From Myxococcota bacterium (lineage in GTDB: Bacteria; Myxococcota_A; Polyangia; JAAYKL01), in assembly GCA_030065855.1 (NCBI GenBank), contig JASJCT010000041.1, positions 1-64,000 on the forward strand: DNA of 64,000 nt, read 5' to 3'. How positions within the stretch are numbered: the stretch's first letter is position 1; each line of letters opens with the position of its first letter. Both the position numbers and the translations under genes were made by a program. The notes under the pieces were generated by a model. That model was not told the origin of the DNA. It worked only from the letters and a program-made list of their open reading frames with translations, and searched no databases. This document shows positions 19,472 to 20,758 of the stretch, one piece after another.

Positions 19472-20227
19472 CTAAGCCAAGATTGGTGGACAGCATTGGA
19501 GCCATTGAGCCCAGTCGGGACGGCCGTTGGCTGTTGCTTTGGCAGCTGCGCGATCCCAGTCGTAGGCCACGGAGATAATATCGATTTTCAAATCAGGGTC
19601 TGTCTTCGTGATCAATGCGTACTTGGCATGAGGAGATCGGGAAGACATCGCGTGGGCATGAGGTGCATCGTCTTCATAGGCCGGCAGCCCCACGCTGCCT
19701 GCATTGACCACGGTCGTGCCACAGGAGAGGCGCGCTACACCGGGTACATGAGAATGGCCGCACAATACGGTCGAGCAATTGACTGTTGACAGGACCTGCG
19801 CGATCTCGGCTTCTGGGCGCTGGACAACGCCCTCAGGGGTTACCTTCTCCATCAGGTACTCGCGATCGCTCATAGGGGTGCCATGGGTCATGAAGATGCC
19901 GTCTACAGTCAGAGACCCGGGCAAAGAACCGAGCCAGTCTAAAATCTGCGGGGTCAGCTGATCGAGGGTTTGTGAGAATTTTGGATGCACCGCGACTCCC
20001 TGGCTCGCCTCAAGGAGAACGCGGTCCTCGTTTCCGGAGATTGAAGGAATATTCAGATGAATGAGCAGCTCAGCGGTCTCCAACGGCTCTAACGGACCGT
20101 ATAGGCTGTCGCCCAGGTTATAGATTCGCTCGATCTGCCTACGGTTGATATCAGCCAGAACCTTTTCCAGAGCCAAGCTGTTGCCGTGAATATCGGAAAT
20201 GACTGCGATTTGCTCATGCGCTTTCAT
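19472..20227 (-). CDS. Calcineurin-like metallophosphoesterase (YfcE/MJ0936-like)
   Basis: This 251-residue protein has the phosphoesterase metal motifs in order: SDIHGN, GDSLYGP, a GNED variant of GN(H/C)D, THG and GHSHVP. Members of this group hydrolyse phosphodiesters such as 2',3'-cyclic nucleotides or model substrates. GNED replaces the usual His or Cys and is worth noting, since that position normally supports catalysis. The gene is convergent with the creC-like gene (1 base apart) and begins 12 bases after the small zinc-ribbon gene upstream, so those two probably share a transcript. Confidence 0.85.
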   Translation of the reverse strand: MKAHEQIAVISDIHGNSLALEKVLADINRRQIERIYNLGDSLYGPLEPLETAELLIHLNIPSISGNEDRVLLEASQGVAVHPKFSQTLDQLTPQILDWLGSLPGSLTVDGIFMTHGTPMSDREYLMEKVTPEGVVQRPEAEIAQVLSTVNCSTVLCGHSHVPGVARLSCGTTVVNAGSVGLPAYEDDAPHAHAMSSRSPHAKYALITKTDPDLKIDIISVAYDWDRAAAKATANGRPDWAQWLQCCPPILA

Positions 20228-20239
20228 GGTTACTCCAAG

Positions 20240-20620
20240 TCAGCCCAATACCAGGCCGCAGTCGCTGCAGGCGTTGTTGACCAGGGGAGCGGCTGTTCCG
20301 CAGGCTGGACAGGCGACCGCACCTTTTTCCTTGGGGACCTGCATTTCGACCGGGGTTAGGCCATCCCGGGCGAGCTGGTCGACCCACTTTTGGTTCTGTA
20401 GCGCTGCGACTTTTGCTGCGTCTCGCTCCTCGACGAGGAGGCTACCCTTTGTGCTTCACCCGCTGACCGTGCACGGCCCCAGCATGACCGGGATGCCAGC
20501 CTGGAGGCATTCGTCCAGCAGGCGTTTGATTACCCGCAGATCTCCGTTTGCCACGGTTCGAAGGGGGTGCCCGGCCTGGGCCCGGGTCTGCAGCGTTTCT
20601 CTTGCGTGCTCTTCTTGCAT
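20240..20620 (-). CDS. Candidate selenoprotein: small zinc-ribbon protein with in-frame TGA
   Basis: Starting at the ATG at 20620 (GAGGAG ribosome site 8 bases upstream), the frame runs 54 codons to GPCTVSG. It meets TGA at 20456-20458, then stays open in the same frame for 71 codons and ends at TGA 20240-20242. The part after the TGA is clearly coding: it begins STKGSLLVEERDAAKVAAL and ends with a zinc ribbon (CPACGT, 14 residues, CSDCG). A hairpin CUCCUC-GUC-GAGGAG lies 16-30 bases after the TGA with G first in the loop, which fits the bacterial SECIS pattern. The product would be 126 residues with Sec at 55, five residues after a Cys. The alternative is a simple nonsense mutation. The function of the family is unknown to me. 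Confidence 0.65.
20426..20440 (-). promoter_or_regulatory. Possible SECIS hairpin
   Basis: Read on the minus strand, CTCCTC (20440-20435), loop GTC and GAGGAG (20431-20426) form a perfect 6-bp stem. The loop begins 22 bases after the in-frame TGA and starts with G followed by T, as in known bacterial SECIS loops. The stem lies inside coding sequence, as bacterial SECIS elements do. There is no bulged U comparable to fdhF, so support is moderate. Confidence 0.55.
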
Positions 20621-20758
20621 AATTTGAGCTCCTCTGTTGATGAAATTGTACACCGATTTCGGTTCGGTTGTCTGCTCTAGGGCCGGGGGAAGGATTGACT
20701 TCTCCTCCCTCTGTCTACTAAGTTCTTCCTTGTTTTGTTAATAAAAATGGAGGCCAAC

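Follow-up and report, generated by a model that had tools for sequence, protein, structure and literature searches.

A selenoprotein gene in a Myxococcota genome that appears to belong to a distant, short branch of the zinc-ribbon DG family

In a 64,000-nucleotide stretch of a Myxococcota genome (hereafter the window), a gene on the minus strand (20240-20620) almost certainly encodes a selenoprotein of 126 residues, in which the UGA at codon 55 would stand for selenocysteine (Sec) and which we take to be a distant, short-form member of the zinc ribbon-containing DG family. All comparative tests point to a genuine selenoprotein gene. In the proposed mechanism, tRNA-Sec and SelB would read the UGA at codon 55 as Sec under the direction of a hairpin, the loop of which is found 21 nt further on. 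The product would have two parts: a small α/β domain, in which a loop bears Sec55 (a position held by Cys in relatives) not far from Cys50, and a zinc ribbon at the C-terminus. Gene callers are likely to split or drop some forty such genes, most of them in Myxococcota, and their annotation would be corrected if this reading is true.

The reading frame opens at an ATG at 20620, 8 nt after a Shine-Dalgarno-like AGAGGAG (20629-20635). It runs for 54 codons, meets the in-frame TGA at 20458-20456, continues for 71 codons and ends with a second TGA at 20242-20240, all on the minus strand. Cys50 lies five residues ahead of the TGA-coded residue 55, and the part after the TGA carries the zinc ribbon, CPACG...CSDCG, at its C-terminal end. 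An earlier note on this DNA had described a gene with these traits, and its ribosome site, interrupted frame, upstream Cys, ribbon and proper stop are all present. It had also called the gene a candidate for an unrecognised selenoprotein, of a family that it did not recognise among the known ones. Those of its proposed refuting checks that sequence data can answer all favoured its reading of the TGA: the genome has sel genes, relatives have Cys at this codon, and the same TGA recurs in relatives. Comparison strongly supports a selenoprotein with a bacterial SECIS element, but the protein is not unrecognised, since it matches the family model NF049953; only a divergent branch below the curated cut-off of that model had escaped recognition.

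Relatives were sought in 96 related genomes, then in 318 of the class and in GTDB contigs, and further loci were added later. Scanning genome contigs with the single protein returned nothing, while an alignment query returned 56 loci. The relatives come chiefly from Myxococcota, with one in a record named Binatia, and homologues with the same TGA occur in 33 genomes of the class. No relatives were found in viral and phage collections. In the final alignment of 83 proteins, the column of codon 55 holds TGA in 39, from unrelated assemblies, a Cys codon (TGC/TGT) in 38, as the earlier note had proposed to look for, and another residue in six (Ala, Leu, Val, Gly, His and His). Such an exchange of an in-frame TGA for Cys among homologues is the pattern by which selenoproteins are recognised. 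In all 39 TGA genes this TGA is the sole stop codon that interrupts the frame. With the Sec/Cys column masked, a maximum-likelihood tree, some deep forks of which are weakly supported, implied at least three changes between Sec and Cys. In all 13 pairs where both could be estimated, dN was below dS before as well as after the TGA, and the sequence downstream of the TGA is under purifying selection. A Cys lies at most 12 residues upstream of Sec in 35 of the 39 TGA forms and is also the rule in Cys forms; such a Cys together with Sec would suit a redox or ligand pair.

The putative SECIS hairpin, CUCCUC-GUC-GAGGAG, was found where the earlier note had placed it, with its start 16 nt past the TGA and a G opening the loop (20440-20426, minus strand). 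Its arms span 20440-20435 and 20431-20426, on either side of the loop at 20434-20432. Bacterial SECIS elements are described as having a stem of 4-16 bp, an apical loop of 3-9 nt located 16-37 nt after the UGA, a G as the first or second base of that loop and a minimum free energy of at most -7.5 (PMC13188914). The window hairpin falls within these limits, with 6 bp, the 3-nt loop GUC, a distance of 21 nt and -12.5 kcal/mol. Its folding energy corresponds to z = -1.13, and 31 of 200 shuffled sequences folded as well. By itself, the hairpin could be due to chance, and the case for a selenoprotein must therefore rest on comparison. An Rfam scan of the window gave no match.

The comparative evidence does place the hairpin beyond chance. 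Each of the 39 TGA genes carries a hairpin with its loop beginning 20-21 nt past the TGA. At least five of the six pairs form in register in 35 of them, which make up the clade of the window gene, as against 5 of the 38 Cys genes, where the pairing is by chance. The CUCCU/AGGAG stem itself occurs in the same number of TGA genes (35/39) and in none of the 38 Cys genes. Within this main clade, all 35 genes have CTC at codon +6, although CTC accounts for 41% of the Leu codons in the rest of their sequence (a simple probability of 3e-14, which ignores relatedness). Codon +10 is GAG, likewise in 35 of 35, and the Glu/Gln-Glu pair encoding the 3' arm is mostly absent in Cys relatives. The four remaining, distant TGA genes (L136:986-1348, L137:601-969, L156:1498-1863 and L162:1498-1869) make up a second branch of DG-like proteins with Sec. 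They carry another stem, GCUCGC/GCGAGC, in the form GCUCGC-GGUC-GCGAGC or close to it, with the loop at the same place and the same distance from the TGA. The main-clade hairpin is nearly invariant and shows little covariation. When pairs were formally counted across both groups in one alignment, the main stem hardly varied and the four distant sequences paired one column over, so that the count is uninformative. The coexistence of Sec and Cys forms, of which only the former keep the hairpin, and of a second branch using another stem amounts to a clean natural experiment on what a SECIS element requires.

These observations bear directly on other ways of reading the TGA. The gene is short and comes from a metagenome assembly in which the base was read out once, and the TGA could in principle be a sense codon that had mutated in a pseudogene or been misread. 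This is extremely unlikely, as 38 further genes, all from other assemblies, share the TGA and the downstream part is under purifying selection; the conserved TGA in relatives refutes it. With Sec in the product predicted from sequence, the UGA could also be read as another amino acid, for instance Trp through near-cognate read-through or a changed code. However, 38 of the 44 non-TGA forms have Cys in this column and none has Trp, the gene's own terminator is a TGA, so that UGA is not a sense codon throughout, and the genome holds a Sec system. We consider this explanation very unlikely.

Finally, the two parts of the frame could be separate proteins, or the real gene could be the antisense frame at 20199-20627 on the plus strand, which stays open over 142 codons. 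Yet it is the minus-strand frame that shows the homology, the constraint on codons and the zinc ribbon, the corresponding antisense frame contains stops in 21 of the 39 relatives, and the Sec/Cys column falls inside one predicted domain. Homology that continues unbroken across the TGA refutes both variants, to which we assign next to no probability. Incorporation of Sec at codon 55 is the reading that we retain.

The machinery for Sec incorporation, for which the earlier note had proposed to search, is complete in the host genome (7.08 Mb in 228 contigs, with an estimated bin contamination of 5.4%). It encodes selA, selB and selD, all above curated cut-offs, and a tRNA-Sec (selC) with a UCA anticodon. 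It has in fact two divergent selA-selB-selC sets, at C97:10767-14199 and C114:9919-13349 (L002, L001, L009 and L010), which differ in gene order, share 40% identity in SelA and each include a tRNA-Sec with the UCA anticodon. Both contigs match the window in tetranucleotide make-up, with correlations of 0.87-0.88 that equal those of the window's own best 4-kb pieces, and contamination is therefore not needed to explain the Sec machinery. Across genomes, selA was found in 30 of the 33 with a TGA form (in two as fragments) versus 6 of the 18 with a Cys form (Fisher p = 3e-5, uncorrected for relatedness). The three TGA-form genomes in which selA was not found (G012, G104 and G120) are all fragmented, with 510-1770 contigs. 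Two selA genes are also present in a genome of the same family (G002). The host further carries two selD genes (C216:9936-10859 and C202:34290-35213), one with and one without an in-frame TGA; the former perhaps encodes a Sec-containing SelD.

The only NCBIfam match of the window protein below an E-value of 1 was NF049953, "zinc ribbon-containing (seleno)protein DG" (E 1.7e-13). Its score of 50.8 bits falls far short of the curated cut-off of 130 bits, which none of 379 sampled genomes in the phylum reaches (best, 116.5). The N-terminal part alone also matches only this model (E 0.0017). In 2025 deep-Sep reported DG as "hypothetical protein DG" of Desulfosediminicola, along with homologues that have Sec and others that have Cys (PMC12013277), and its motif was given as GUxG in a 2026 review (PMC13188914). 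Our literature search returned nothing specific on the DG family in Myxococcota. Residues 2-125 of the window protein are collinear with positions 41-171 of the model, so that the likeness extends over 124 residues and includes both the α/β domain and the C-terminal ribbon. In both groups Gly precedes Sec, and both have Sec and Cys forms. When a Cys at residue 55 was exchanged for Ala, the model score fell by 2.7 bits, the largest drop among seven changes tried in the N-terminal domain, and in L154, which scores 115 bits, this column is occupied by Cys. Judging from the model and L154, the Sec/Cys positions of the window branch and of DG coincide. The second Sec branch, at 71-82 bits, and L154 form a chain leading from the window branch to DG.

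The window branch differs from DG in the context of its Sec, which is GUST or GUGT rather than GUxG, and in being shorter. Model positions 1-40, which form a ribbon in L118 and L154, are unmatched by the window protein, where the match begins at position 41 and no Cys occurs before residue 38. Its SECIS stem is also unlike the one in the branch nearer DG. We conclude that the window gene represents a distant, shorter branch of a known family, found mainly in Myxococcota and missed by the present cut-off, and not a new family. DG would thus extend well past the sulfate reducers of its naming, to Myxococcota and, with one record, Binatota.

An AlphaFold2 model built from 54 rows (mean pLDDT 89) predicts the order helix, strand, helix, strand, strand, helix, followed by the ribbon. 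Sec55 falls in a predicted loop that connects the strand at 45-48 to the one at 58-64. The C-terminal ribbon, CPAC...CSDC (residues 102-126; 20243-20317, minus strand), has C104, C107, C118 and C121 invariant in 54 relatives. The α/β domain (residues about 19-89; 20354-20566, minus strand) weakly suggests a likeness to DUF2007 (PF09413, putative prokaryotic signal transducing protein), with a similar predicted order of strands and helices and an hhalign match over most of the domain (probability 67%). PF09413 matched 3 of the 54 relatives weakly (best E 0.002), and a Pfam scan of the window protein gave no DUF2007 match. Unlike the window protein, the DUF2007 sequences compared here have neither Cys nor Sec at the place of Sec55. 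DUF3343 / Se_S_carrier (PF11823) is also a small protein with one conserved mid-protein Cys, and two relatives match it weakly. As a parent fold it was rejected, with an hhalign probability of only 8%, and it was not found in the window's own genome. A PDB sequence search returned mostly ribbon matches, none informative, and Foldseek against the PDB gave nothing with E under 0.001, only weak PII-like and 2hfv matches.

With regard to function, we put at roughly even chances that the protein acts in thiol/selenol redox chemistry or carries metal, selenium or sulfur, the ribbon serving for docking. No conserved neighbourhood was found around the TGA forms, and hence no pathway is indicated. The downstream phosphoesterase-like and upstream peptidase-like genes, named by the look of their sequences, are not common to the TGA-form relatives. 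A further reading, which we regard as unlikely, is that the window branch is a functionally distinct selenoprotein subfamily with a role unlike that of DG and its own SECIS stem, in a host whose two divergent Sec systems (two selA-selB-selC sets) may include one matched to particular SECIS types.

Among the other loci, a large double-ribbon group in the phylum (L154, L118, L138-L140 and L157-L182), arranged as ribbon, α/β domain and ribbon, matches the DG model weakly and mostly lacks Cys at the Sec column. L124 (4944-5321) has Ala at the Sec/Cys column amid close Cys-form kin, which suggests that the residue there can be lost. A DG-like gene in a record titled Comamonas sp. KCTC 72670 (L085) groups with Myxococcus; this record is probably misnamed or its assembly contaminated.
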